Source of the DNA: Sipunculus nudus
Lineage: Eukaryota; Annelida; Sipuncula; Golfingiida; Sipunculidae
Length of the DNA stretch: 64,000 nt
NCBI GenBank assembly: GCA_026874595.1
Contig: CM049307.1
Span: 31,979,862 to 32,043,861, forward strand
Direction of reading: 5' to 3'
Shown here piece after piece: positions 1,440-62,500 of this stretch. A program made the position numbers and the translations under genes. How positions within the stretch are numbered: the first letter of the stretch is position 1; every line of letters begins with the position of its first letter. The notes under the pieces are model-generated. The model saw nothing but the letters and a program-made list of their open reading frames with translations, was not told the DNA's origin and ran no database searches.

Positions 1440-4400
1440 CTGAAGGTATAATAAATATGTATAAAAAATAATTGTATGAAACATTATAATGGCATATATG
1501 TGCTTGTCTGTTATACTTTTACCTAGATTTGGTAAAGTTTGGCTTAGCTCAAACAAGAAATGTACCAATTTTTAAATTTTTAAATAAATTTAAATAAAAT
1601 CTGCATTTATTAATCTCATTGTTTCAAGATTTACAGTTACTTTATATGAGCATATTTTTGTGCTGAAGAGATTAAACATATATAAATTAACATGACCAGA
1701 GGGCTAACTGATGACCCTAACCAAACCATAAACATGATTTTAATATTCACTCTGTGCAGAATATACACATTTCCATTCTTAAACATGTCTACCTTATTAA
1801 AGCATTCATCTCAACCGATTCTGTAAGCATTTTAGATAGACATACTGTATCTGTCTCAGAATTATTTACAAAGAAGAACTTTTGATAGACAATATACAGG
1901 TGTTCCAAAACACATTTGTACAAATATACTTTTTTACACACAATGTGAAAGTGCTAAAGTGTTAAATATAATCTTAATACACTGAAGAAGTTCAGTATTT
2001 GATTAAAGATATCAACCACATTTAGAGAACTACATTTTAAGAAGTATGAAGACTATTTAATACTTATATAAAGCAAAGAAATATATCCTTACATATTCGC
2101 AAAGGGACATAATATTTTTCATTAGAAAACACAAAGTAACTGTACTCAAGAATCAATAATAAAAAAACACCCCAGTAAATTAAAACATCTCATATATTAT
2201 CCACTGATATATCTAAAGCGGAAGCATTTTTTAATAAACCAGCATGTGACCTCAAATGATTCCCTCCTTACCCCGACTGAAAATATCCATAATATGCACT
2301 ACTCCTAATAATACCAATCATACAGTACCGTAAGCTTTTTTTCATTTGCAGGCAATTCAGAGCAACAGAGGCAACTGGCTTATAATTATAAGACCTAAAG
2401 AGTGCAGCTGGTGGGGTGGGGTAAAAGCTTGCAGGGAACCCCTGACAGTGATGCGTGATATCCAAAGATTCACCTATGTGGGGTAACATACACAGTGCTG
2501 ACACACTATCGTTTGAGGGAGTTGTTTTCTAGGTCCTATGATGGATCTGAATGCTCCATCACAGAAATGTTTATGATGTGGCCTTTTTTTCTATCATCTC
2601 TTTCACACAATATGACTTTGACACACACAATTTTGAAAGGTCGAAATAAATTGAAACAGCAGCAAAAAACTTGGTGATTTCAAAGCTTCCACTGATTTTC
2701 AAGTGGTACCTGACAGTAAACACTAGAGTTAAAACAAAACTGAAATGTACACAATTTTACATGTAGACCAACATGCAGACACTGACCAGCCATAATACCA
2801 GGACTAAGTTCTTCCAACAAAAGATGTTAAAGTATTTGTCACTTATTAAAACCAAACCACACCAACTTAGTATGGCTGATTTTTGTTATTTTACAAATGG
2901 TTCATACAGAATCCAAAAGCATGAGATGGCATTTCAGTTTAATGAAGCTCAAGATCAAAGGGATATTGATTTATCTGTCAATGAAACATTTAAAGGGACA
3001 TAATCAGGAGCAATAGTTGCCTATTCTTTCACTCTTTTATTTCAGTTTTGCTTTATACAAAAGTTTTCCAGTAAAACCATCCAAGCACACAGTCTCATTT
3101 TCTTCACATAAGACTGTAGAACACCTTGTTATAGCCCTGCTTGTTGGTAAACACAGTCTGTTTACCATAACAAGGCCGCGTGACCGGAGGTCCGATTAAG
3201 AGGGCCAACACGCGGCATTTCAGAAAGCTTGAACAAGTATTACATTTTTTGGACCAAGACAATCAGGGCATCTCTGGATTGGCACATGTTATGGCTCTGA
3301 ACAGCACTCTGCCCGACGTACTTTGTTTATGTTGACACCTGCTATCGCGCCTGGTTCGCAGACGGTTCAAGGCAATCATTTTGCTGGTACAGATTAATTT
3401 TAAAGGGAAGAAGCTATTTTTTGTGTTAACTCAACATGCTTTTTAGGTGATTGGGCCCTTTAAATATACATATTGATAAATACTATTATCAATAACAATC
3501 ATGGAAAGGGCTCCAGCCTCTGTTTTTTATCATATGTAGCACTATAGTTACAGTGAACTATGAAGCGGGCTGTTAGTATGTATGGATTCCCATCATTTCA
3601 TGAAAACAGAATTCCCCTTCCTCCCCGGAGGTTTTACTTCATAATCCATAGTACTTTTTTTCATTTATATTTCCATATAAGAACCAAACCAACCATCCAC
3701 AGGCTTTAAATGAATAACATATACCGATCATTTTCTTGTTGCCAATCACAGTCTGCATCTTTTTCTTTGAGGCATTTTTCTTTAATTCCCTAAACTTTCC
3801 TTAATTGGAAATGGGTAACACACTTTCCATGTTTTCCCTGATTTCGAGAATGACTGGGAATCCTGATGTGATACAATACATATCAATGTTCATTTGTGTT
3901 TTAAAATTGAACAAAGAGTGTGGTATTCTGTTAGTTATAAAACAATCCTGTTGAACTAATAATGTAAGTCCAATCATGATAAAAAAAAAATGTGCACACA
4001 GGACTGCAGATTTACATAACCAAATCATTCCCCACAGGAGCCATTGCTTCAAAGATCATGACCTTGCATGTCTCTGACCTTCATAACCTTGAACCAGCAT
4101 GACTCCAAACTTTATAACGACCTTATAAAGGTGATTAGAATCTTAACCCAGTGAATATTAAGAACTGTTCCACCTAATCTTAAAGTAAACTGATTTGAAA
4201 GACCAAAAAAAAGATCATTCAACAGTAAATTACATATAACTACAGATATAAGAAAAAATATTTATAAGACATGATGCAGGGCCCACTCCTTCAGGTGTGT
4301 ATCCCACTTATTAGACCATCAAACAATATTTATGTGGTTAACCTGGTAGGTTGCTGATAGAGAAAGGATAATATCTTAACACAAATAATATAGTTGAAGT

Positions 4401-7400
4401 TCTATAACTGAAATACATGTCTTTCAGAATGATGACGTAAGGTTAAAAATAAATACCAGTCTCTGAGAGAGAGAGAAAACGTGATACTAAAGATCTGTGT
4501 ACTGGTACATTTTCTTGTGATTCCAAAAAACACAGGAACTGTGAAGATAAACTCTGTGTAATATATCTGATAATAAAGTTAGATTTGTGTGAGAGCCTTT
4601 TTCCATGTGCTAGAAAACCAAGTGAATGAATGCTGAAAAAAATGTGCTGAATTTAGCTTTTCCATGTATGCTAAAACGTGCATGTTTCCACGGAATCCTC
4701 CCTTTGCGTGACTTGTTATCCCAAGTGTTCCTGGTGACATGTCGAGCATGTATCAGTTATATACAGTTCACTGTATTCATACATGCAGTTAAAATTTTTT
4801 ATTTATATGCAGAAATGTATAATTTCTATAACGGTAATGTGCTATTGACATACAGGTGGGGGTTGTAGTCAGTAATAAAATATTTAACCCCCCCACATAT
4901 ATTTATAATATCATTGAGGACAGGCAGAGCAGCAATAAATCTGTCACAATGGTTTAAGCTGGTAGGCTACAAGCAGACTGCAATCGCGTCCTAGAACTCC
5001 ACAAGAAGACTCACCCACACATGCATGGAAATGGGACACATGATTTTATCAGCCGAAAAAAAACGTGCATAGCACGATGTTCATTTTATGTGTTACCACC
5101 TGCATGTTAAAGGGATACATGATTTTTCTAGCGCAATTTTATCAGAGTTTTCACGCGCAAGGAAAAGGGCCCTGATATTTGTTAAAGTCAGATTATAATG
5201 ACACAGGAAACTCTTGAAAAACTGTGAGACATAGTGCTGAAAGGAATCGTTGAGGATACTTTTACAGCGGCACACAAGCTAACTACAGTTAGTCTTACCT
5301 CCGGGTTTATCTGTCATAACAGAGATTTCAAACTTATTAGAGACTGAAATTAATACACTGGAGACTCCACAGTGCCATAGTTACTCTGGTAAGCTTACAG
5401 ATAATGTGGTAAAGTCTAAATAAAATGTGACAATCAGCACCAGGTAGCTAAAAGTATAGTTTTTTAATCTGACATAAGTAACAGTGCACACTTTAAAAAA
5501 TGTATAAAAAGTATTTTGAAAACTACAAATCAATATCTAATATTCCTTTCTCACTGTAATGAACTTTTCAGGTTTTACACATTTAAACTCATATAACTGA
5601 AACTGGTTATGGGTGACAAATTTTAATAATTAAAGTTTCAAAAATATTATATGGAGTAGAGGTTTGTCTATCCAATCACTTTATCTGAAAAATTGTTGAT
5701 CAAAAATTGAAAACTGACATTTATCTGAAATAAAAAACAACTGAATATTGACAATTGTTTATTGAAAATCTGCATAATGGAAAAAAATATTTGGATCAGC
5801 AGTGCTATATAATGCCTAACAATAAAAGCACCCTACAACAAGTAGAAATTGTGAAAACACATTGCCCCACTGATCTGTGTCCTACTCGGTTCACCTTTAA
5901 TCAAGCAGTCAAGGCAGGGATGTTTAACAAGATTAAACAAAATGTCACCCATGACCCTGACTGTCAATCCAAAATTATATTTATACTGAACAGAGATGAT
6001 TACCAAATGATTCCTCACTTTTTTATTACATTCTTGCAGTTTTCCTAGTCCACTTTCTAGGTCATGGCCTGTAATTTGCTTTTTCAAAGCAGCTGTGCAT
6101 GACATGAGTTCAGTACGATGCTGATTGATTCTGTTTTTCCAGAGCTGTAAATTTGTCAGTATGTGATAATGTCTGCTCCCAGAAGCAGCTTGCCAATCAT
6201 GGCAAATCTTGGGGTTATCTTTAGCAAGATCACTTATCTTAACAAAAACCTTGCCCCTCAAGCTGTTCAGATTAAAGATACTCTACTTTATTAGAATAAA
6301 ACCAATAGAAGCAGCAATGTACCATGGTCTAACTGTATACCATAACCAACAACATGATGGGTGAATGGAGCAGTGACAATTTTGCCACCAGTCTGTGTGT
6401 GTTGGTGTGTGGGTATATCCTGGTTTACTAAGGGGTGGTGGGTATCATCTGTCTTAATTCCTGGATACATGGACCCCCATCATGCTCTAATAACAGTCAC
6501 ATAAATAAATAAACCAAAACAAACAAAAATGGGATGCATTATAACTTCAGCAAGCAATAAAAACAGGATAAAAACATGATGGACCCATAGAAATATGTCC
6601 TGGTGACAGACATTCACAACTGACAGTGGCAAGTTTAATGACACTCTGCAAACATTGAGTCATTTTCCAACTTAAACAGTGACAGCAGGAAACCATTGAT
6701 TGATTGACACTGCTATTAAGATAAAACTTTGGTTATCAGCATATGGTTTCTTCCTGAAAATGATCCTCTTTGAGGTTTGGTTAAAAAAAAATCCTTTATA
6801 TACTCTGTACTAAATCACCAAAAAATTAAGAATGAAATGTGAACAAAGTGGAACCAAACATAATGTACAACAAAAAAACCTTAAGTCACAATGTTGTAGA
6901 GATGAGGACATTTATTGAGAAAATAAAACTACAAGTGAACCTGACACTGAGCAAAACCTGTGAATTAGGATGAGGACTGTGCTGCTTGTTATGGTAAAAT
7001 ATAAACATTTAGAAATATATCTTATCTGTTCACAGGAAGGTGTTTCAAAATATAAATGGCCATGATGCTCAGGTGAAGACCAGCTACTTTGTACAAAGAC
7101 TAGATATCTACAACAACATGAAATGGTTGAGAAATTATTTGGACTTTTGTGTTTTTGAAAAATATACTCTTAACCCTAACTTGTCTAACAAATGACCCAT
7201 GGGTCATGACGCTCAGCTGACTGGGAAGAGATTTGCAAAAGGAAATTTTATCATCTGAATGGTAGTATATACCCATTCCACTGAAGCATCCAACAGATTA
7301 ACCAACAGGCCAAGACTGTGTCTGAATTTATGTCTAAAAATAGAGAAAATATGCGTAAACTTTAAAAAAAAATACAGATGGCTCCACCAGTCTGCAGAAA

Positions 7401-10400
7401 CTAATAAAACACTTAATGGTCAATATCCATGCAAAGAATCATGGTGATCACTGCATTAGTTGTTCAGATACTTCAGCTTTTGTATCAAATTTTCCATTAT
7501 TCTGAGGGATACTTCAGAGTCCTTTAGCTTGAAGGATACGGGTAACAAAGACCTTATTTCAGATTTCCACAGACACTTTTCATGGGCCTCCTTGCATGAC
7601 AAGAATGAATATTAAAGGTGCAGTTGTTACAATTTGTGCCGCGTTAACAGATGACAGCATCCTTAAAGGTCTCAAAAATAGAGAAAAAAATTTGAAAAAT
7701 TGAATAAAATATAGGTGGCACCACCAGTCTGCAGAAACTGATGAAACACTCCATAATCAATATCCATGCAAAGAATCATGGTGATCTCTGCCTTAGTTGT
7801 TCAGATACTTCAGCTTTTGTATCAAATTTTCCATTATTCTGAGGGATACTATGGAATCCTATAGCTTGAAGGATATTGGCAACAGAGACCAATTTTCAAG
7901 TTTCCACAGACACCTTTCATGGGCCTCTTTGCATGACAAGAATGAAGATTCTAGGTGCAGTTGTTACAATTTGTGCCATGTTAACAGATGACAGCATCCT
8001 TAAAGGTCTCAAAAATAGAGAAAACTAGATGTGTCGGAACGACACGAATGCCCCCGCCTGGGGCAAATTAGAAACATTTGTTAAATTTTGAAAATTTTTT
8101 TAAGTTCAGGAGGTGTTGTAAGGTCAAAAGTAGGTCAACAAGGGCAAAATGCTCGATCTGTAACGGGTCATTATCAAGCAACACACCAAAAATCAGGCCA
8201 GTATCTGCAGGCATTGTGAAAAAAAGTCCATACATGTGCATTTTCCATAAAAATTTCTGTCTTTGATGAAATTTTCTATGTTTAGGAGCCATAAAACAAT
8301 CAAAAGTAGGTCAACCGGGACTAAACGTGAACTCGATCTGTAACTGTCATTATCTGCCCATACATATAAAATCAGGGTGGTATCTGCAGGCATTGAGGAA
8401 AAAAAGTCAGTACATATGCATTTGTTATGAAAATTTCTATTTTTCATGAAACTTTCTATGTTCAGGAGCAGTCAAATGGTCAAAAGAAGGTCAACTGGGA
8501 CAAAACAAGAACTTGACCTGTAACTGGTCATTATCTACCTACACAACAAAAATCAGGCCCATATCTGCAGGCACTGCAAAAAAAAGTCAGTACATGTGCA
8601 CTTTTTCATGAAATTTTCTATGTAAGAGCATCGTCAAACAGTCAAAATTAGGTCAACAAGGACAAAACAAGAACTTGATCTGCAACTGGTCATTATCTGC
8701 CCACACACCAAAAATCAGACCAATATCTGCAAGCATTGTGAAAAAAAGTCTGTACATGTGTATTTGTCATGAAAATTTCTATTTTTCATGAAATTTTCTA
8801 TGTTCAGGAGCCGTAAAACGGTCAAAAGTAGGTCAACTGGGACGAAACGCGAACTCCACCTGTAACTGGTCATTATCTGCCAACACACAAAAAATCAGGC
8901 CAATATCTGCAGGCACTGCGAAAAAAAAGTCTGTACATGTGTATTTGTCATGAAAATTTATATTTTTCATGAAATTTTCTAAGTTTAGGAGCCGTAAAAC
9001 AGTCAAAAGTAGGTCAACCGGGATGAAACGCGAACTCTATCTGTTATTTGTCATTATCTACCTACACAACAAACATCAGGCCAATATCTGCAAGCATTGC
9101 GAAAAAAAGTCCATACATGTGTATTTGTCATGAAAATTTCTATTTTTCATGAAATTTTCTATGTTCAGGAGCCGTAAAACGGTCAAAAGTAGGTCAACTG
9201 GGACGAAACGCGAACTCCACCTGTAACTGGTCATTATCTGCCAACACACAAAAAATCAGGCCAATATCTGCAGGCACTGCGAAAAAAAAGTCTGTACATG
9301 TGTATTTGTCATGAAAATTTCTATTTTTCATGAAATTTTCTAAGTTTAGGAGCCGTAAAACAGTGAAAAGTAGGTCAACCGGGATGAAACGCGAACTCTA
9401 TCTGTTATTTGTCATTATCTACCTACACAACAAACATCAGGCCAATATCTGCAAGCATTGCGAAAAAAAGTCCATACATGTGTATTTGTCATGAAAATTT
9501 CTATTTTTCATGAAATTTTCTAAGTTTAGGAGCCGTAAAACAGTCAAAAGTAGGTCAACTGGGACGAAACATGAACTCGATCTGTTATTTGTCATTATCT
9601 ACCGACACACCAAAAATCAGGCCAATATCTGCAGGCATTGCGAAAAAAAGTCTGTACAACTGTTTGATTTCAGAATGACGGAAGGACGGAATGACGGACA
9701 TGGGTAAAACTATATGCCCCGGCCACTTTGTGGCGGGGGCATAAAAATGGGAAAAATTGAATAAAATATAGGTGGCACCGCCAGACTGAAGAAACTGATG
9801 AAACACTCCATAATCAATATCCATGCAAAGAATCATGGTGATCTCTGCATTAGTTGTTCAGATACTTCAGCTTTTGTATCAAATTGTCCATTATTCTGAG
9901 GGATACTTCGGAGTTCTATAGCTTGAAGGATATGGGAAACAAAGACCTTATTTCAGGTTTCCAAAGACACTTTTCATGGGCCTCCCTGCATGACAAGAAT
10001 GAATATACTGGGTCCAGTTGTTACAATTTGTACCCTGTTGAATGATAACCACATCTTTAAAGGTCTCAAAAAGAGAAAAAAAATTGTAAAAATTTGAGGT
10101 GGCACATCCAGTCTGCAGAAACTGATGGAACACCTCATGATCAATATGTATGCCAAAAATCATGACCATCAGTGTTGTAGTTATTGAGATACTGCAGTTT
10201 TTGTATCAAATTTTTCATTATTCTGGGGGGGGGGGTATTTTGGAGCTATACAGCTTAAAGGATATGGGTAACAGAGACCTAATTTCAGGTTTCCATGGAG
10301 ACTTTTCATGGGTCTCCCTGTGTATCAAGAATGAAGATTCTAGGTTAAGTTTTAATGATTTGTGCCCTGTTAACAGATGTTCATATCTTTAAAGGTCTCA

Positions 10401-16400: not shown

Positions 16401-18719
16401 GAGATATAAGCCTGGATGTCTGCAGCCTGAACTTGAAAGTAAGTGGTGCCACCTGTCACAAAACTGAGAAAGATAACTAAGGTGTACATAAATGCAAAAT
16501 TTTAGGCAGATAAGTCAAACCACCGTCAAGATATGAGTGATTTTGTCCCACGGAAGACAAACTGATGCACGCTGTGCAAAATGTTGCAGGTGGCGCCACC
16601 AGTCTTGCGTATGATAAAGGGCTATATGAGATCTATACACATGCACAATTTCAGTAGGATAAGTCAAACCAGTCCTGAGATATAAGCTTTGATGTCTGCA
16701 GCCTGAACGTGAATGTAGGTGGCGCCACCTGTCATAAAATCAAGAAAGCTCTCCAGGATGAATACACATGCAAAATCTCAGATGGATAAGTCCATTCACT
16801 GCAGAGATATGAGTGATTTTATCCCAAGGCTGATGAACAGATGGACGCTGTGCAAAAATTGGAGCATGTGGTGCCACCATTTTTTATGAATGTTATAAAG
16901 CTATCCCAGGGCTACATTTGTGCAATTTTTTTTTCCCGGTTTGGTCAAACAAGTCATAAGATATGTGGGTTTATGTTTAAAACAGACAAACAGATGGACA
17001 CACTGGAGAGAGGAAAGATCAGAGGTCAACCCAAAATATTTTGGGACCAGTTCACATGTGATTCAATAATCTTGTAAAGTTTAAAAAAAACTGTCCAGTG
17101 GTCTCAGAGTTCTATTCCCGAAACGAACACGGAGGCGGCGGCAGAACCCAGTCAAAAACATAGTATCCGCAAAACTTTGTTTTGGCGAATACAACAAGTT
17201 CTTTTGACTTTTTTTGATGTTCAATATAACATAAATTTAACATTCCTGTGTTAGGTATAAAAGGAAAAAAAGGTTCTTGGTAATATTCTTGCACAGTGAT
17301 TTTACATCATTCAAAGTAAGAAATACTACCAATTATGGCATTAAATGTAATATTAAAGTATGATCATTTGGTGTTTCAAATTAACTAGCATTGGAGTTTT
17401 AAAAAAATTCAAATTAAAAAAAAAATGTAAAACAAATAAATAGTCAAAGTAACAAAATACACGATTTGAATAAAAAAAGACTGAAATGCAGCATTAAACC
17501 CTTAAGAAAATAGTAAAAATTTTAAATTAAACCAAATTTTTCTTGGTCTATTTCTTCCATTTCGAAAGTCTAGAATGTAAATTTTGTGAATCAGTTTTAA
17601 TTTTGTGCGGTCAACTTATTGTGACATAGCAGTGTATTCCTATCACCATGAACTGAATAAACTATACAACATGCAAGCTACACTGTTTGACACTGTATAC
17701 AGCTCATACTTCATACAAACTAACTGTACATAACAATACTTCATACAAACCAACTGTACATAACAATACTTCATACAAACTAACTGCACATAACAATACA
17801 TCATACAAACTGAACCTAACAAGCTTTCTGTGTGGCAGTGTCTCACCTTGGCAAACAGGAGTGTATACAAGCTGGCCCTGCATGGGAAGATCACCAATGG
17901 GAAACTGATTGCTACAGACAATACGAAACCGAACTTGATGGCCTCGCTGAAGATAGTGGGTTTAAAGTTCTTAAGGACATCACCCTGGATTTCTGTATCA
18001 CAAAACGCCACATAACCAAAATACCCCACCTGAAACACAAAGGAAACTAAAAATCTGCAACTTGATGAAAGCTGGAATATTTAACAACCTGAATTCATGA
18101 TCATGTGGTAAATATCAACAGCTGAAATGAAAAAAAAAGGTATTTCGTGAATTTAAAGGATATGCTCAGTTAATATCCTAATACATATATACATATATTG
18201 TTTACCTAGAAAGCAATAACACAGTCTGACTACTTCACACCCATAGCTACTTGTATCAGTGTTGAAACATTTCCTGGAGAAAACTTTGCACTATTACTAG
18301 TATCAGAGTTAAAATTTGCTGAGCTTAAGATATTCTGGCACCAACCAACACTTTATATATATTATTTTGACAATTCCATAATTTTTGGCAAGGTTTTATT
18401 ATTTATTTAAAAACATTTTCAATTGCTGCACTAAGAATGTATGGATCATAACATTTTTTTCAAATATACACCTGGACCATTTATCAGCTTGACAAGCAGT
18501 ACTTACTGCGAGGTAGACAACCGTGCACAAACTGATGGCATCCTTAGTGATGGAGGTCATCTGTTTAAGGGACGGCTCAGGTAGGGCATCATACATCACA
18601 AACAGCTGGCTGTAGGTTAATGTATTAAATAACTTTATTAAACACACAAACAATGGAGGACCCCTGTTATAGGGATAGCTCTGGCCAGATGTCATACATA
18701 ACAAACAGCTGGACATCAT

Positions 18720-41456: not shown

Positions 41457-41590
41457 ATATTTTGTGAAGTCATGGAGACTGTTGTTGGATCCACTGTCAG
41501 CTTCCATGACATCAACTACACTGTCCCAGTAAAAGACCCGGGAGCAAAATGTGGACAGACTCGAGAAAAACTGATATTACAAGGCATAAA
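41457..41590 (+). CDS. ABCG2: ABCG2 first coding exon (start codon)
   Basis: Acceptor GTACTGCAG at 41456; ATG at 41472; donor GTAAGT after 41590. Coding bases 41472-41590 give 39 codons plus two bases. It encodes [18 protein letters not shown] and then a polar stretch to LILQGI. The SFHDINYTV stretch matches the SFHNICYRV start of the nucleotide-binding domain, so only ~9 residues precede the domain, much less than in vertebrates. The 15 bases before the ATG are open in frame, but the likely upstream exon would bring an in-frame stop. The exon's last ~20 bases resemble a unit of the minisatellite that follows. Confidence 0.9.
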
Positions 41591-44500
41591 GTAAGTATAA
41601 ACTCAGGTTACAAGGAACAAAGGAGGAACACACTGGTATTATGATGCATAAAGTAAGTATAAACTCAGGTTACAAGGAACAAAGGAGGAACACACTGGTA
41701 TTATGATGCATACAGTAAGTTAAAACTCAGGTTACAAGGAACAAAGGAGGAACACACTGGTATTATGATGCATAAAGGTAAGTATAAACTCAGGTTACAA
41801 GGAACAAAGGAGGAACACACTGGTATTAGGATGCATGCAGTATGTTAAAACTCAGGTTACAAGGAACAAAGGAGGAACACACTGGTATTAAGATGCATAA
41901 AGTAAGTATAAACTCAGGTTACAAGGAACAAAGGAGGAACACACTGGTATTATGATGCATACAGTAAGTTAAAACTCAGGTTTACAAGGAACAAAGGAGG
42001 AACACACTGGTATTATGATGCATAAAGTAAGTATAAACTCAGGTTACAAGTAACAAAGGAGGAACACACTGGTATTATGATGCATACAGTAACTTAAAAC
42101 TCAGGTTACAAGGAACAAAGGAGGAACACACTGGTATTATGAGGCATACAGTAAATTAAAACTCAGGTTACAAGGAACAAAGGAGGAACACACTGGTATT
42201 ATGATGCATACAGTAAGTTAAAACTCAGGTTACAAGGAACAAAGGAGGAACACACTGGTATTATGAGGCATACTGGTATATTGGTTAATTAGTGTTGCAA
42301 GGTAGCATTTAAATGCGAGCATATACATTCAGAGCTGGTTATTTTAAAGAATTAGATAATTTCAGGTTCATGTTACATGGAATGAAGGGAGTCAAAACTT
42401 GTAAAACAAATAACAGTTTGTTTTTCTCCTGTGATACAAAACATATTTCTAATATTCTTTAGTTTTTGGTGGACTATAACACTGCACAGCACATGATTTT
42501 TACTATGTTTGTTTTTCAAAACTGCTCCCTGACACAACCAGTGAAGCAGCATTGCTCTAGTCAGACATACCTGACATATTACCTGTATGTGTACTTATGC
42601 CCAAAGCTTATGTTCATAATGATACCTTCTACACAGTGGGTGCTTTTTAGAAGATTAGCAGTCTCCTGCCTTTAAAAGCATCTACATTGATGATATTTAA
42701 AGACAGCTATTCAACTACCTTAGCTAGATAATGTTTGTGATTTTTGGCTCATTTTGTACATATCAATGAACTCTTAAGTAATTCTGAAAAATTCTTATAA
42801 TGCCTCTCTGATAGATGTATGAACTTGTTTATTCACAAGCTGTCCGTAAAGAATAATTTTGTTATATGGGAAAAAATGTAACCTATGATGGTTGGTTGCA
42901 TGTATTCTGCAGTGGAACGGTCACTAGTTGCAAAACACACTTTGTCTGACTTGCTGCAGGATGTCCTTGTTGAATATGTTTGGATTATTTTGGTGGGTAC
43001 CCCACATGTTATAAACATGTGGTTATAAACAAAATGAGCAGCTTGTGTGCAGTTGGATTGGCTTTTTTCTGGCTTATTTCTATAAAGGTTTGGAGGGATT
43101 ATTTTATAAACATATATCAGAATAGGTCTCTTTAGCAAAAGGTTTACATAAAAACACAGGATGAAGCATCCTTGTTGGTGGACAGATAGTCCTGACTTTT
43201 TCAAAGTTTTCTTTCTTGCTTTTCCAGGCCTGTCATTGCAGTATAACACCTGTCACTGTAGGCCTTGCCTGTCAGTCCTTCAAAGGCTAATCCCCTGTTT
43301 GAACTTGATAAATTGCTAAACGTCAGACCAGGCTTAACAAATTGCTGCCACTGCTGTTTCTGTCATGGTTTCTGTCCATCAACTCCCCAAGGTCTGTGTC
43401 CTTGTTTCAGCCAAAATACTCTGAAAACTACCAAAAATGGATATGATATAGGAGGTATCTGCAGGACCAACTGGTGAACCACCAAAATGTGTGGGTACAT
43501 CACATGATGTTTCAGCAGTCCCTGATAACTGTTATTGTTTTGTATCATATCCAGTTAATAAACAGGTGATTTTAATGCATGATTTTTCAGTCAGATTTTC
43601 ATCAGTCACTGACAGCCATTTTATACAATTTAGACAATAATAATAATGATTAATATCTGCAGTGATTCTAAAAATCTCTAACATAGAACAAGTTAAAAGG
43701 TCTTATTTAACCAGAGGTCAGAGTCATCAGTGTATGGTATTGACTTCAGTGTTGTAGTCAAGTCCACACCATCCAAGAGCAAGTGCAAGTCCAGGTCTAG
43801 GCTACTCATGTCCTAGTCAAACTTAGAGTCATTGAACTGCGAGTCCAAGTCCACCTTCTTTGAGTCCTAGTCATTTGAGTCTGAGTTAAATATAAATATC
43901 CTTAAAAAAATTATAATGGAACTTTCAGTTTACACATGATTTTTACCATAATGATTAATTACATTTAGCTCCTGATGCTGAGCTAAAGTTTGGTATCTAT
44001 ATGATGCTATTTTATTGTACTTTTCTATTGGTAGTTTGCGCTTGGATATGTTTTTATAATATTTGACAGAGAATTTTTATATTCTACTCAAGATGGACTT
44101 TTCTTGTTATTTCGAGTCCTTACCTCTGAGACCTAGTAGAAGTCCAAGTCCAGGACCTTCGAGTCCAAGTCCCTAAAAAATTGGACTTGAGTACGGACTC
44201 AATTCCATGTCCTACTCAAGTCCTAGAACTCATTCCTACATCACTCAGTGATTCATGATTCATTTTTGTCATGTTAATATTTAACACTCATTTGCTGAAG
44301 ATCTGCTTATTATAATTCAGTGCCAGTTTATCTTTAGTCATGATTAACTTAAGAATCTGTGATTCAGGTTAGTTTACAACAGCTTATTTCCTAAACAGTG
44401 TTTACTTAGACATTATATTGGTATTTTCTCTGTTTCAGTGGAATATTCAAACCAGGCATGAATGCAATCTTGGGACCCACTGGAAGTGGCAAAACATCGT

Positions 44501-50500: not shown

Positions 50501-53500
50501 TGATTTGGCTGTTCCTGGGCATTATAACTATTTAGCTGATTAATCTTAGTTATATACATTTGACCTGAGTGATGTAGTTGCATAGTTGGTCTGCTTTAAA
50601 TAATTACATATTGCGGTTTGTATCATGCATGGTACTCAATCTGATTACCAAGCAGACACTATCCATGTGGTACACAAAACAATGTTTAATAATTACATAT
50701 AAAAATAATTGTAATCAAATGAACTGTTACATCTGTAACACAAGTTAGTCTAAGCCTAAAACACGTCCCAAATAGAAAATAAACTAATTCATTAATAGTA
50801 AAGCCAATCAAAGATGAAAACCATAAATTACACAGCAAAACAAAAATTTCAACAAATATATAGAAATATAAAGTTCCAAGGATACAGTCTGAAATTCTAT
50901 GACAGAATTCTCATGTATTGCATCACTGAAAATCTAAATATGTTAATCGTCAGAATCCAAATCCCTAAATGAAAAGTATTTCTGTGTATCTTCTTCTTCA
51001 CTCTCTCCTGTGTTTCAGTAAATAATCTCATCAATTTATATCCAATTTTCTCAATAATTCATATAATCCCAAAGCTTATGATATGTTGATCTCTGAACCT
51101 CCATATCATAGGAGGATATTTCTGTGTATCACAGGTTGCCGATGTGTCAACAGATTAAAATCCTTAAGAATTAACAGTATACTGACATTAAAATAACAAT
51201 TGATATGTTGAATATATATTTTCTCTCTCTCTCTAAGTGTGTATTACTGCTGCAGGTTGCTGGATGTGCTGGCAGCCCGTAAGGACCCCAGTGGTCTGTC
51301 AGGCCAGGTCCTGATCGACGGATACAAGCAGCCCAAAAACTTCAAGTGTATGTCAGGATATGTCGTCCAGGTGAGCATGTTGAATGAAAATCTCAAAATT
51401 GAATATTTTTATGGAACAAAAAGGTTGTAGTATTGGTCAGGGAACAGACAGTATTTAAAAGTTTGTGTAATTTTAAAGGAACAACAACTTAATTATCAAT
51501 TAAGATGCTAGCTGGGGAAAAGTACTCTTGTTATTGTTGCTTGAGGTTCAAAATTCCCACATAATCCTGAAATTTTGAATTACTTGAATATGTCAATTTG
51601 TTGAAAGGACCATGCCAGTTTCCAAAATGGGTGAAAAATCTCACTTTTTCAGCATTAGCCATGCATGCATGTCATATTCTTTGATAGTTTGGTTCATGAA
51701 GCCAGTCATCAGATATGACAGCTTAATTATTATTCTAATTTTGCTAAGAAAATCTTAACATACTTTTGCTCTTTTTAGCCCTCAGCCCTTAGGCTGATGG
51801 GCTATTGTCGTCACCCAAGCTGTCCTCTGTCTGTCCGTCCGGCCGGCCGGCCGGCCGGCGTCTGTTAACTTTTACCTTGTGAGCGGGATATCTGGAAAAG
51901 GATTCACCGTCAAAATTTTATCTCCTCGGTAAAGATGTATATCGACAAAATCTCAGTCAAGTTCGAAGATGGGTGACCTTGACCTATTTTTCTACATTTT
52001 AGAGGTGATTATAGAAAAACACTTAGATGCTTATTACTCAGGAACCATTTGGTGGATTTTCACAAAACTTACTATGATCATAGGGACTGATGATCTGTAA
52101 CTGCTGCACAAGTTTGGGGGCACCACCTACAATTTCTGATTTTTAATGAATTTTTCTTGGATTTTTCAACTTTGGCCTTGTGAGCGAATATATCTCTAAA
52201 AGGATTCACAATAGGAATTTTATTTCTTTGGTGAAGATGTAAATCGACAAAATCTCGGTCAAGTTCGAAGATGGGTGACCTTGACCTACTTTTCAAGGTC
52301 ACAGAGCTTTATAATAGAATAAAACTTATTTTTCAGGAAGCATTTGGTGGATTGTTATGAATCATGGTACATACCACTCCATTTAAAATTTATAACTGAG
52401 ACATGTACAGATATACATCCATGTGAGAACAGATATTTAGTACTTGTTACTGTTACCACCTTTAAACACTGTTCTTTTGGCTGAGGGCTTTTGTCAGCTT
52501 CTGCTGATATTCTAGTTTTTATATATTGTTTTCGATACAATTTATACAGATTGAAAAATAAACTTAAAAATGTCCTGTGCCAGTTGTCTTTTTTATGCCC
52601 CCGCCACAAAGTGGCCGGGGCATATAGTTTTACCCATGTCCGTCATTCCGTCATTCCGTCATTCCGAAATCAAACAGTTGTACGGACTTTTTTTCGCAAT
52701 GCCTGCAGATATTGGCCTAATTTTTGGTGTGTGGGAAGATATAGACCAGTTACAGATCAAGTTCGCGTTTCGTCCCGGTTGACCTACTTTTGACCGTTTT
52801 ACGGCTCCTAAACTTAGAAAATTTCATGAAAAATAGAAATATTCATGACAGATACACATGTATGGACTTTTTTTCGCAATGCCTGCAGATATTGGCCTGA
52901 TTTTTGGTGTGTGAGCAGATATAGACCAGTTACAGATCGAGTTCGCGTTTCGTCCTGGTTGACCTACTTTTGACCGTTTTACGGCTCCTGAACATAGAAA
53001 ATTTCATGAAAAATATGAAATTTCATGACAAATACACATGTACAGACTTTTTTTCGCAGGGCCTGCAGATATTGGCCTGATTTTTGGTGTGTGGACAGAT
53101 ATAGACCAGTTAAAGATCGAGTTCGCGTTTCGTCCCAGTTGACCTCCTTTTGACTGTTTTACGGCTCCTAAACTTAGAAAATTTAATGAAAAATAGAAAT
53201 ATTCATGACAGATACACATGTACGGACTTTTTTTCGCAATGCCTGCAGATATTGGCCTGATTTTTGGTGTGTGGGCAAATATAGACCAGTTACAGATCAA
53301 GTTCGCGTTTCGTCCCGGTTGACCTACTTTTGACCGTTGTACAAACATAGAAAATTTCATGAAAAATAGAAATATTCATGAAAGATACACATGTACAGAC
53401 TTTTTTTCGCAATGCCTGCAGATATTGGCCTGATTTTTGGTGGGTGGGCAGATATAGACCTGTTACAGATCGAGTTCGCGTTTCGTCCTGGTTGACCTAC

Positions 53501-56500
53501 TTTTGACGGTTTTACGGCTCCTGAACATAGAAAATTTCATGAAAAATATGAAATATCATGACAAATACATATGTACGGACTTTTTTTAGCAATGCCTGCA
53601 GATATTGGCCTGATTTTTGGTGTGTGGCCAGATATTGACCAGTTACAGATTGAGTTCACATTTTGTCCTGGTTGACCTACTTTTGACTGTTTTACGGCTC
53701 CTGAACATAGAAAATTTCATGTTAAACATAAATTTTCATGACAAATACACTTGTACAGACTTTTCTTCACAATACCTGCAGATATTGGCCTGATTTTTGG
53801 TGTGTGGGCAGATAATGACCAGTTACAGATCAAGTTCACGTTTTGTCCCAGTTGACCTATTTTTGACCGTTTGACGGTGCTCTAACAAAGAAAATTTCAT
53901 AAAAAGGTGCATATGTATGGACTTTTTTTCGCAGTGCCTGCAGATACGGGCCTGATTTTTGGTGTGTAGGCAGATAATGACCAGTTACAGATCGAGTTCT
54001 TGTTTTGTCTCAGTTGACCTACTTTTGACCATTTGACTGCTCCTGAACATAGAAAGTTTCATGAAAAATATAAACTTTCATAACAAATGCGTATGTACTT
54101 ACTTTTTCTCCTCAATGCCTGCAGATACCACCCTGATTTTTTATGTGTGGGCAGATAATGACAGTTACAGATCGAGTTTGCGTTTCCTCCCGGTTGACCT
54201 ACTTTTGATTGTTTTACGGCTCCTAAACATAGAAAATTTCATGAAAGACAGAAATTTTTATGGAAAATGCACATGTATGGACTTTTTTTCATAATGCCTG
54301 CATATACTGGCATGATTTTTGGTGTGTTGCTTGATAATGACCCGTTACAGATCGAGTTTGCATTTTGCCCTTGTTGACCTACTTTTGACCATACGACACC
54401 TCTTGAACTTAAAAAAATTTTCAAAATTTTACAAATGTTTCTAATTTGCCCAAGGCGGGGGCATTCGTGTCGTTCCGACACATCTAGTTTTTCTGTGTTT
54501 TGCCTGCTGCCAGTTCTACATAAATTTCTAGATCAATATAGGAGTAACCTTGATGATATCATGATATTATGAGACTGAACAAACATGTGTCATGTACTTT
54601 TTGCCACTCACTCACACTGTATAGTGGTTGATTTTCCAGGATGATGTAGTGATGGGTACACTTACAGTCCGGGAGAACTTCATGTTCTCAGCATCTTTAC
54701 GACTTCCTAAAGATGTTTCACTGGAAGAGAAGAAGAAAAAAGTGGAAGAGACTATACAAGAGCTTGGTCTCAGCCATTGTGCTGATTCCAAGGTATGATT
54801 GACCACGTTGTCTCTGCTGGTTGTGCTCTGTAACAGTTAGGCCATACAAAAAATGGTTTTACGGATTGGCCACTCCCATTTTTATGGAAATTCCTTTCAT
54901 TTTATTTGGCAAATGAAGACCAGATCCTTGGTAATGTTGCTAATTTGTTCCACAAATTCCCTAAAAGAATTCTCCAAGAATTGACTAAATTTTGTGTTGG
55001 TCATGTAAACCTGTTCAAGAATTGAAACAAATTTTGTATTATCTATGCAAACTGGCTAAATTCCTTATATTGTCTTTTCTAATAAAGACAAAAAAGGAAA
55101 GGAAAAAAATTGCCTGCTTGCACCATATTTGTTGTTTCTAGAGTCTGTAATGCTATAATTGTATCCGCCAAAATGAAGTTTTGCGGATACTATGTTTTTG
55201 ACCGGGTTCCGCCGCCGCCGCGGCCGCCGCCGCCGCCGCCGCCGCGTTCGTTTCCGGAGAACTCCTCTGAGACTACTGGACAGATTTTTCCGAAACTTAC
55301 ACAAATTATCGGGTCACATGTGAACTGGTGCCTAACCAAGTGACCTTGACCTCTGACCTTTCGTCTCTGCCCAGTGTCCGTTTGAGCGTCTGTTTACACA
55401 CATAAACCCATATATCTCGGGAACGGTTTGACCGATCCGGAAAATTTTTTTACACAAATGTAGCCCTGGGATAGCTTTATAACATACACAACAAAAGGTG
55501 GCGCCACCTGCAACCATGTTTGCACAGTGTCCATCTGTTCATCTGCCTGGGGTTAAAATCACTCATATCTCTGCAGTGGTTTGACTAATTCACCTAAAAT
55601 TTGGCATGCATATACATCCTAGATAGCTTTCTCAATTTTATGACAGGTGGCGCCACCTACATTCACGTTAACGCTCCACACATAAACCCATATATCTCGG
55701 GAACCGTTTGACCGATCCGGAAAATTTTTTTACACAAATGTAGCCCTGGGATAGCTTTATAACATACACAACAAAAGGTGGCGCCACCTGCAACCATGTT
55801 TGCACGGTGTCCATTTGTTCATCTGCCTGGGGTTAAAATCACTCATATCTCTGCAGTGGTTTGACTAATTCACCTAAAAATCGGCATGCATATACATCCT
55901 AGATAGCTTTCTTGATTTTATGACAGGTGGCGCCACCTACATTCACGTTAACGCTCCACACATAAACCCATATATCTCGGGAACCGTTTGACCGATCCGG
56001 AAAAAATTTTACACAAATGTAGCCCTGGGATAGCTTTATAACATACACAACAAAAGATGGCGCCACCTGCAACCATGTTTGCACAGTGTCCATTTGTTCA
56101 TCTGCCTGGGGTTAAAATCACTCATATCTCTGCAATGGTTTGACTAATTCACCTAAAATTCGGCATGCGTATACATCCTAGATAGCTTCCTTGATTTTAT
56201 GACAGGTGGCGCCACCTACATTCATGTTAACGCTGCAGACATCCAAGCTCATATCTCGGGAACCGTTTGACCGATCCTGAAAAAATTTTTACACAAATGT
56301 AGCCCTTGGATAGCTTTATAACATACACAACAAAAGGTGGCGCCACCTGCAACCATGTTTGCACAGCGTCCATCTGTTTGTCTGCTGTGGGATAAAATCA
56401 CTCATATCTCTGCAGTGGTTTGACTTTTCCACTTGAAATTTTGCATGTGTATATATCTTGGATAGTTTCTCATTCAAATAACAGGTGGCACCACCTACAA

Positions 56501-59500: not shown

Positions 59501-62500
59501 AAAGTGCTCAGTGGTCGGGTTTGCTATCTGGAGAAATGTTCCTTTTATTGAATATTAGAATTAGTTATCAATCAATTGATTATCAGTAAAGTATATTGAT
59601 ATATTGGAAAGGTTGTTAGTCACTTATCACATGGAAACAGAGCCATTTAGCAGATACTGATTGGATGCTGCCTTGTAAAAACTAAGATTGACTTATATAA
59701 TATAATATAAATTGAAATACTTATTAAACTTCTGGACCTCCTGTAAAACAAGTTATAGTACTTGACTTATATAATATAACAAAATATATATCAGATTACA
59801 ACATAGAAAAATAATTTGGTATATGTGGACATCAGTAAGAGAGTTATACTTGATAAATTATCATAAGAATATAAAAGTAAAAATATAAGGTAAATCTATT
59901 AAATACCCTGTGTTTATGTTATGTAAGAAAAAACTATACAGTTTGCTGAAAGTGCTAAAGATGTGTCAGTAAGATAGTTAGGTGATGAATTTGCTTGAAT
60001 ACTTACCATCATTTATAATGACCCAGGTGGGGACAGAGTTCATCAGAGGAGTGTCAGGAGGAGAGAGAAAGAGGACCAACATCGGCATGGAGCTGATAAC
60101 CAGCCCCGACGTCCTGTTCCTTGATGAACCTACAACCGGTCTCGATGCCAGTACAGCCAACGCTGTCATGCTGCTACTTCACAGGTATGTCAAGCTGGTG
60201 ACAGGGGTTGTTAAATGTACCTGGTCACCTTGTCCAGTCAAAGGTATGTCAGGCTGGTGACAGGGGTAGTTTAATGTTCCTGGTCTTCTTGTCGAGTCAC
60301 AGGTATGTCAGGCTGGTGACAGGGGTTGTTAAATTTACCTGGTCACCTTGTCCAGTCACAGGTATGTCAGGCTGGTGACAGGGGTAGTTTAATGTTCCGG
60401 GTCACCTTGTCCTGTCACAGGTATGTCAAGCTGGTGACAGGTGTTGTTAAATGTACCTGGTAACCTTGTCCAGTCACAGGTATGTCAGGCTGGTGACAGG
60501 GGTAGTTTAATGTTCCTGGTCACCTTGTCCAGTCACAGGTATGTCAGGCTGGTGACAGGGGTTGTTAAATTTACCTGGTCACCTTGTCCAGTCACAGGTA
60601 TGTCAGGCTGGTGACAGGGGTAGTTTAATGTTCCTGGTCACCTTGTCCTGTCACAGGTATGTCAAGCTGGTGACAGGTGTTGTTAAATGTACCTGGTAAC
60701 CTTGTCCAGTCACAGGTATGTCAGGCTGGTGACAGGGGTAGTTTAATGTTCCTGGTCACCTTTTCCAGTCACGGGAATGTCAGGAAGGTGATATAGGTTG
60801 TTTAATGTACCTGGTCACCTTGTCCAGTCACAAGTATGTCAGACTAGTGATATGGGTTGTTAAATGTACCTGATTGCCTTGTCCAGTCACAGGTATGTCA
60901 GGCAAATGATGGGGGTAGTAAAATGTGCCTGATCATCTTGTCCAGTCACATATGTCAGGCTGGTGACAGGGCAGGGGTAGTAAAATTACCCACCTTACCC
61001 AGAATAGTAGATTTTAAGCATATCCAGCAATGACACAAATGACCATTCTGTATAGCTAACATAAACACCTTCTTTGCATGACTGAGCTCATCAATTCTGT
61101 AAATACTCTGTATTCAGGATATTGTCTGTAAAGTACTCTGTATTCAGGATGTAGTCTGTAGTACTCTGTTCTCAGGTATGTAGTACTTTATATTCAAGAT
61201 ATTGTCTGGAGTACTTTATATTCAGTATGCAGTCTGAAGCACTCTGTATTCAGGATATTGTCTGTAGTACTTTGTACTCAGGATATTTTCTGTAGTACTC
61301 TGTACTCAGGATGTTGTCTGTAATACTTTGTACTCAGGATCCAAATTTTCTGTAGTATGCTTTATTCAGGATATTGTCTGTAGAACTTTGTATTCAGAAT
61401 ATTGTCTGTGATACTCTGTATTCAGAATATTGTCTGTGATACTCTATATTCAGGATATTGTCTGTCATACTCTATATTCAGGATATTGTCTGTAATACTC
61501 AATGTTCAGGATGTAGTCTGTAGTACACTTTATTCAAGATATTTTCTGTAGTACTCTGTGTTGAGGATAATGTCTGTAGTTCTCTGTACTCAGGTTGTTG
61601 TCTGTAGTACTTTGTACCCAGGATCAAATCTGTAGTACTTAAATTCAGGATATTGTCTGTAGCACTTTGCACTTAGGATGTTCCCTGTAGTATATCATAT
61701 TCAGAATATTGTCTGTAGAACTCTGTACTCAGGGTATAAAAATTGTATGTAGTACTTTGTACTCAAGATATTGTCTGTAGTACTCAGTCTCCAGGATATC
61801 CCCTTTAGTACACTGTTCTGTTGCTTATTTCAGGCTTGCTAAGAAAGGCAGGACCATCATCTTTTCAATCCATCAGCCAAGGTACGCCATCTTCAGACTT
61901 TTTGATAGTTTGATGTTACTTGCTAGAGGGCGCACTGTATACCATGGTCCAGCAGGAGAAGCAATTGATTTCTTCAGTTCTATTGGTAAGTCCCAAGACA
62001 GCTCTAAATTCTATATATTCAGGTATCCTGTACCCTGAAAAATTAAACATACATTAATTTAAAAATGGAAAATTAAGCACATTTGTGATATTTAAGAGAA
62101 GGATAGAAAAGTCATGAAAAAATCACAGAACCTGATTGTCTGACTGTTAGAGCGTTGAACATCAACTTATTATGTAATCTCAGAATTTGAAATGAATTCA
62201 CCATGCAAGTGTTATTTTGGAAAATGAATCTCATACTTCCCAACCCACTGCGGAAGCTTTAAGACCTAGACTTCAGGACTGCCTTTAAACACTTGTGCGT
62301 GGCAGTGCACACTGATCTCAGCAATATATCATATATGAATTATTAGTTATACTAAAAGATCATATCATCATTTTTAGAACATTTAAGCACTATGCTAATA
62401 ATTATAAAGTTCACAATTTAAATATAAAAAGGGCCTTAAAAATCAGGGAAAATGGTAAATTCATGCAAATGACAACTCTTTTATCTTTTTCTTTATGTGC

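Follow-up and report, generated by a model that had tools for sequence, protein, structure and literature searches.

The window analysed here, a 64-kb stretch of 64,000 nucleotides from the Sipunculus nudus genome, contains an ABCG2 orthologue on the plus strand and an SLC38A10-like gene on the minus strand. A tblastn search with human ABCG2 as the query located seven ABCG2 exons in the window, and six of the seven, when spliced at consensus sites, join into a single clean reading frame. Three tandem arrays lie within or beside the junctions of this gene, and the features concerned are as follows.

41457..41590, plus strand: first coding exon of ABCG2, whose last 21 nt are copied, with 4 mismatches, into the array at 41.6 kb
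41570..42273, plus strand: donor-seeded minisatellite, 62 bp × 11.3 (TRF), unrelated by sequence comparison to the 59-bp array
60027..60184, plus strand: coding exon 5 of the ABCG2 orthologue, matching residues 176-230 of human ABCG2 (E 1e-24)
60179..60971, plus strand: donor-seeded minisatellite, 59 bp × 13.5 (TRF), with 10 exact copies of CACAGGTATGTC
60185..60190, plus strand: GTATGT, the donor of unit 1 and the sole one to preserve the ABCG2 frame
61096..61816, plus strand: 28-bp array of ~25 units with an acceptor-like TATTCAG/G in the unit, in the second half of the exon-5 intron
61834..61985, plus strand: next ABCG2 exon after the array-bearing intron (tblastn, joined frame)

The initial annotation, made from the sequence alone, placed the exon 5 donor of ABCG2 in the first unit of a ~60-bp array. 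TRF bears this out with a call of period 59, 13.5 copies and 86% matches, and unit 1 holds the last six nucleotides of the fifth coding exon, TCACAG, followed by the donor GTATGT. The count of about 13 copies given for CACAGGTATGTC was too high, as ten are exact and the versions in units 2, 11, 12 and 14 are imperfect. The partial alternation of subtypes is real and runs over units 1–10, where two subtypes take turns. Units 3 and 7 are identical, as are units 5 and 9, and units 11–13 have diverged, a pattern that suggests recent expansions by two- and four-unit blocks. The donor columns are less variable than the remainder of the unit (3.7% vs 8.8%), and of the 12 full units downstream, 9 have a donor whose predicted U1 pairing equals that of unit 1. 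Neither an Rfam match nor a tRNA gene was found. We rejected a dispersed element as the source, as nothing else in the window matches the units of either ABCG2 array, and likewise a masking of decoy donors by RNA structure, as the first donor is predicted to be no more accessible (0.010) than most copies.

The array at 41.6 kb has the same geometry, as originally described: in both ABCG2 arrays the first unit lies over the exon end, and the periods are 59 and 62 bp. Between its units 1 and 2 there are differences at 4 of 21 exon positions and at none of 41 intron positions, the pattern expected if homogenisation extends to the junction and the coding part is kept constant. Half of the private changes in this array (5 of 10, by hand count on the alignment) fall within the 9-nt donor (P 0.009), and one unit carries a donor stronger than the first. 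Selection against decoy donors was considered and set aside, the two ABCG2 arrays pointing in opposite ways with no consistent sign. The exon 5 array includes only 6 exon nucleotides, so the argument that it was seeded by the junction draws on the array at 41.6 kb and on the other loci described below.

Together the 28-bp and 59-bp arrays make up ~91% of the 1649-nt exon-5 intron, which is shared with human ABCG2. The 28-bp array stops 17 nt before the ABCG2 acceptor AG; similarity to its unit runs to 61816 and is followed by the real TTTCAG/G with an 11-nt shift, and the start of the exon is unlike the unit. Seeding of the 28-bp array by an acceptor is possible. Elsewhere in the gene, a 35-bp × 13 array (G000:C2:32059622-32060074, in locus L015) stops ~43 nt short of a later ABCG2 exon, and its unit has GTAAGT on the opposite strand. 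In the SLC38A10-like gene, a 30-bp × 3.5 repeat (17706-17811, minus strand) starts ~36 nt past a donor that itself lies outside the repeat.

We mapped 14 donors and 15 acceptors in the two genes and asked how often repeats start at them. Two of the 14 donors have at least seven copies of their own 20-mer in the next kilobase. Array-start positions, defined by at least seven downstream copies and none upstream, account for 452 of 123,962 positions in the window, and 2 of 14 donors are such positions (P=0.0012). The check that the initial annotation had proposed, at least three downstream copies of the sequence around the donor, was run within the window without the array-start condition and was not significant (base rate 6.4%, P=0.23). 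No acceptor among the 15 in the window reaches three upstream copies of its 20-mer. Among arrays with a period of at least 20 and at least 5 copies, 3 of 5 have one of their two ends no more than 25 nt from a junction against 0.11 expected (P=5e-5), with the end of the 28-bp array set by us at 61816, the TRF end being 61799, and the end of the 62745 exon assumed; at 40 nt the same test gives P=2.5e-4. Over 264 kb around the window there are 17 non-overlapping arrays of period 20-100, and the hexamers of their units show no clear donor enrichment (GTATGT in 5, GTAAGT in 3, with ACAAAC highest at 6).

We searched the genome (1.43 Gb, 153 contigs, 35% GC) for three copies of AGGTAAGT or three copies of AGGTATGT spaced 28-58 bp apart. 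Among the first 100 matches listed for each, AGGTAAGT gave 11 loci, on contigs C1 and C2 up to 36.9 Mb, and AGGTATGT gave 11, on C1 and C2 up to 5.1 Mb. We read the donor-strand 5' edges of all 22 loci, and 18 were assessable after we dropped three whose array leaves the piece read (L037, L039 and L055) and one duplicate (L059, of L056). At 11 of the 18 the array clearly starts at a coding exon end (L012, L036, L038, L040, L041, L042, L043, L050, L051, L054 and L056), at two an exon start is probable (L035 and L053), and at five no exon is evident (L034, L052, L057, L058 and L060), in a classification made by eye and unblinded in which 7 of the 11 clear exons are without homology support. Clear exon starts were recorded for 7 of 9 AGGTAAGT loci and 4 of 9 AGGTATGT loci, and the copied exon tail at the 11 clear loci measures 7-45 nt.

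Exon homology was found at four clear loci, to PKA regulatory subunit I (PKA-RI, E 9e-25), ABCC2 (9e-9), the SKAP55 PH domain (8e-4) and HDAC6 (7e-4). A PDB search of the exons at L036 and L035 gave no match up to E 0.1, and the exons tried against Pfam had no match above curated cut-offs. The exon at L012 we take to resemble SFI1. Sequence ahead of the first donor was also compared with a background of 185 sites from the window (AG/GT followed by A or G): at least 44 open codons precede the donor at 10 of 18 loci vs 16% of the background (P 1.5e-4), and GC in the last 60 nt is at least 0.43 at 13 of 18 loci vs 17% of the background (P 3e-7), with both thresholds chosen after the values had been seen and a background that includes real SLC38A10-like donors. 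Scaled up in proportion from densities of 11 loci per 148 Mb and 11 per 116 Mb, the whole genome would hold roughly 100 array loci for each motif, an extrapolation that draws on the first contigs, on two donor words and on a single range of spacings.

As a control we used the reversed motif TGAATGGA, whose first 100 matches comprise three arrays on C1 up to 7.6 Mb. At the six edges of these arrays we recognised no exon; none of the six has 44 open codons, and three of the six have a GC of at least 0.43. Exon starts thus number 11 of 18 for donor-motif arrays vs 0 of 3 for reversed arrays (Fisher P 0.09), a comparison with a control of three arrays only. Counts of loci over the opening 7.6 Mb of C1 show no excess for the donor motifs, with three loci for TGAATGGA, one for AGGTAAGT and four for AGGTATGT. 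We set aside whole-genome match counts (AGGTAAGT 1032 vs 662 reversed; AGGTATGT 5900 vs 1217), which are dominated by long arrays. The result concerns the start points of donor-motif arrays and says nothing for their excess.

The initial annotation had confined seeding to donors, which proved too narrow, as acceptors have also seeded arrays at two of these loci. At both, an array upstream of the exon has units that contain the acceptor together with the opening bases of the exon, and a donor-seeded array lies downstream of the same exon. Locus L051 (G000:C1:2333850-2334650, minus strand) has 17 acceptor copies at ~23-bp multiples, and L054 (G000:C1:18865620-18866420, minus strand), with the HDAC6-like exon, has four at ~53 bp. 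The minus strand of a further contig (L013, G000:C3:93362000-93370000) has a probable exon, identified by eye and with no Pfam match, and a 34-bp × 31 array (4261-5317) that stops some tens of bases ahead of it. This array appears to begin with 29 nt copied from the exon. A 43-bp × 25 array in the same piece (2844-3912) begins ~20 nt past the probable donor of that exon.

Single cases of arrays that span splice junctions are already on record in lancelets (amphioxus) and in humans. The amphioxus 'mirages' of Adh3 and the globin genes BflGb6 and BflGb9 are, according to PMC3087553, minisatellite-like duplications over an exon-intron boundary of either kind, in which many units retain splice signals, the Adh3 units are 10-72 bp long, and the centre is homogenised and the edge is not. 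Mirages also leave regular splicing in place and are unstable in length and in somatic tissue. As in mirages, the exon end lies inside both ABCG2 arrays (6 nt at exon 5, 21 nt at 41.6 kb). The use of either boundary is likewise shared through the acceptor arrays at L051 and L054, the window itself offering no more than the suggestive 28-bp array. Mirages were reported gene by gene in cephalochordates, whereas the Sipunculus nudus arrays occur in many genes and are known from one assembly. What is notable here is this recurrence of junction-seeded arrays in one genome. The nearest genome-scale work that we found is a survey of human segmental duplications, which by its account contain variable internal tandem repeats at exon-intron boundaries (PMC2812944). 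Those are minisatellites at exon-intron boundaries, as at ABCG2, but they differ between paralogues and alter exons or form novel introns, whereas the frame and intron positions of ABCG2 are unchanged. Short keyword searches of the open-access literature found no survey of junction-seeded arrays over one whole genome.

We consider it very probable that the exon 5 array is a minisatellite seeded by a splice junction, of the same kind as the amphioxus mirages, and that it arose by ordinary tandem duplication across the junction with the copies being spliced out. A short segment over the exon end and donor would have been duplicated in tandem, presumably by slippage or unequal exchange. If the exon-proximal donor is still the one used in RNA, the extra copies, with their donors and exon tail, would land in the intron and be removed, and the duplication would be tolerated, and perhaps nearly neutral, because the exon-proximal splice site is kept. 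The copies would then be freed from coding constraint to expand and homogenise in two- and four-unit blocks, while the exon part of unit 1 would remain constrained. Arrays have been seeded likewise at other exons of the Sipunculus nudus genome and at some acceptors.

Several other explanations have to be weighed against junction seeding by ordinary duplication. With 17 arrays in 264 kb and a three-copy test that is not significant, minisatellite-rich introns might by chance include two arrays that start at donors. Such a coincidence is highly improbable given the array-start and junction-distance statistics and the copying of exon tails at 11 further loci. The initial annotation went further and saw a process that duplicates 5' splice sites in this genome. 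Its claim of recurrence stands, with 11 clear and 2 probable exon starts among 18 loci, but amounts to no proof of a special process over ordinary duplication with tolerance. A mutational mechanism that targets splice junctions as preferred duplication sites, coupled for example to transcription or splicing, would explain why arrays recur in genes that are unrelated and can flank a single exon on either side (L051 and L054). We hold it to be quite unlikely, as ordinary duplication with tolerance predicts the same picture and donor-motif loci show no excess over reversed-motif loci in the 7.6-Mb stretch of C1. A broader proposal holds that minisatellites arise preferentially at donor and acceptor junctions alike, by a mechanism linked to transcription or splicing, so that introns lengthen from their ends and 100 or more genes contain stacks of decoy sites; we regard it as speculative and unlikely.

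The downstream units could also serve as alternative donors that yield isoforms, as in human IFI6 (6-16), where minisatellite units supply multiple splice donors (Turri et al. 1995, via PMC4526556) and splicing from two downstream units is reported. The ABCG2 array shares with IFI6 units that contain donors, and the equal predicted U1 pairing of 9 of 12 downstream units fits such a device. At the level of sequence, however, the frame is intact with the first donor, and each downstream donor tested breaks it: neither period, 59 or 62, is divisible by three, and all 12 donors tested in the exon 5 array and all 10 at 41.6 kb lead to a premature stop. We therefore judge an IFI6-type device to be very unlikely. 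In the Rogers model of intron gain (PMC4974935), tandem duplication of an AGGT-containing segment makes the array itself into an intron. Every intact unit does contain AG/GT, and splice-site sequence is duplicated in both situations, but the ABCG2 intron was already present. In human ABCG2, introns lie at c.203, 263, 531/532 and 689/690, judging from how variants of the gene are named (PMC7600124, PMC6523779). The exon lengths match those in human (60 nt for 44439-44498, and 158 nt for 60027-60184, which corresponds to c.532-689), as do the phases. The exon-5 intron, which under intron gain should be absent from orthologues, has its human counterpart at c.689/690 in the same phase. These shared positions indicate that the introns predate the arrays, and the next exon does not open with unit sequence, leaving intron gain with almost no probability.

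Junction-seeded arrays provide a readable record of splice-junction duplication and are a source of intron growth and of decoy splice sites, and the repeats themselves offer a means of locating exon ends. The arrays also make a question testable, namely whether such duplications originate evenly and are merely tolerated at junctions or originate preferentially there.

The window also holds two 180-bp tandem arrays (8124-9658 and 52679-54390), which lie 44 kb apart in opposite orientation and share 21-mers, and extra single copies of the 180-bp repeat lie near 23.6 and 25.5 kb. These arrays are perhaps repeats within a mobile element.
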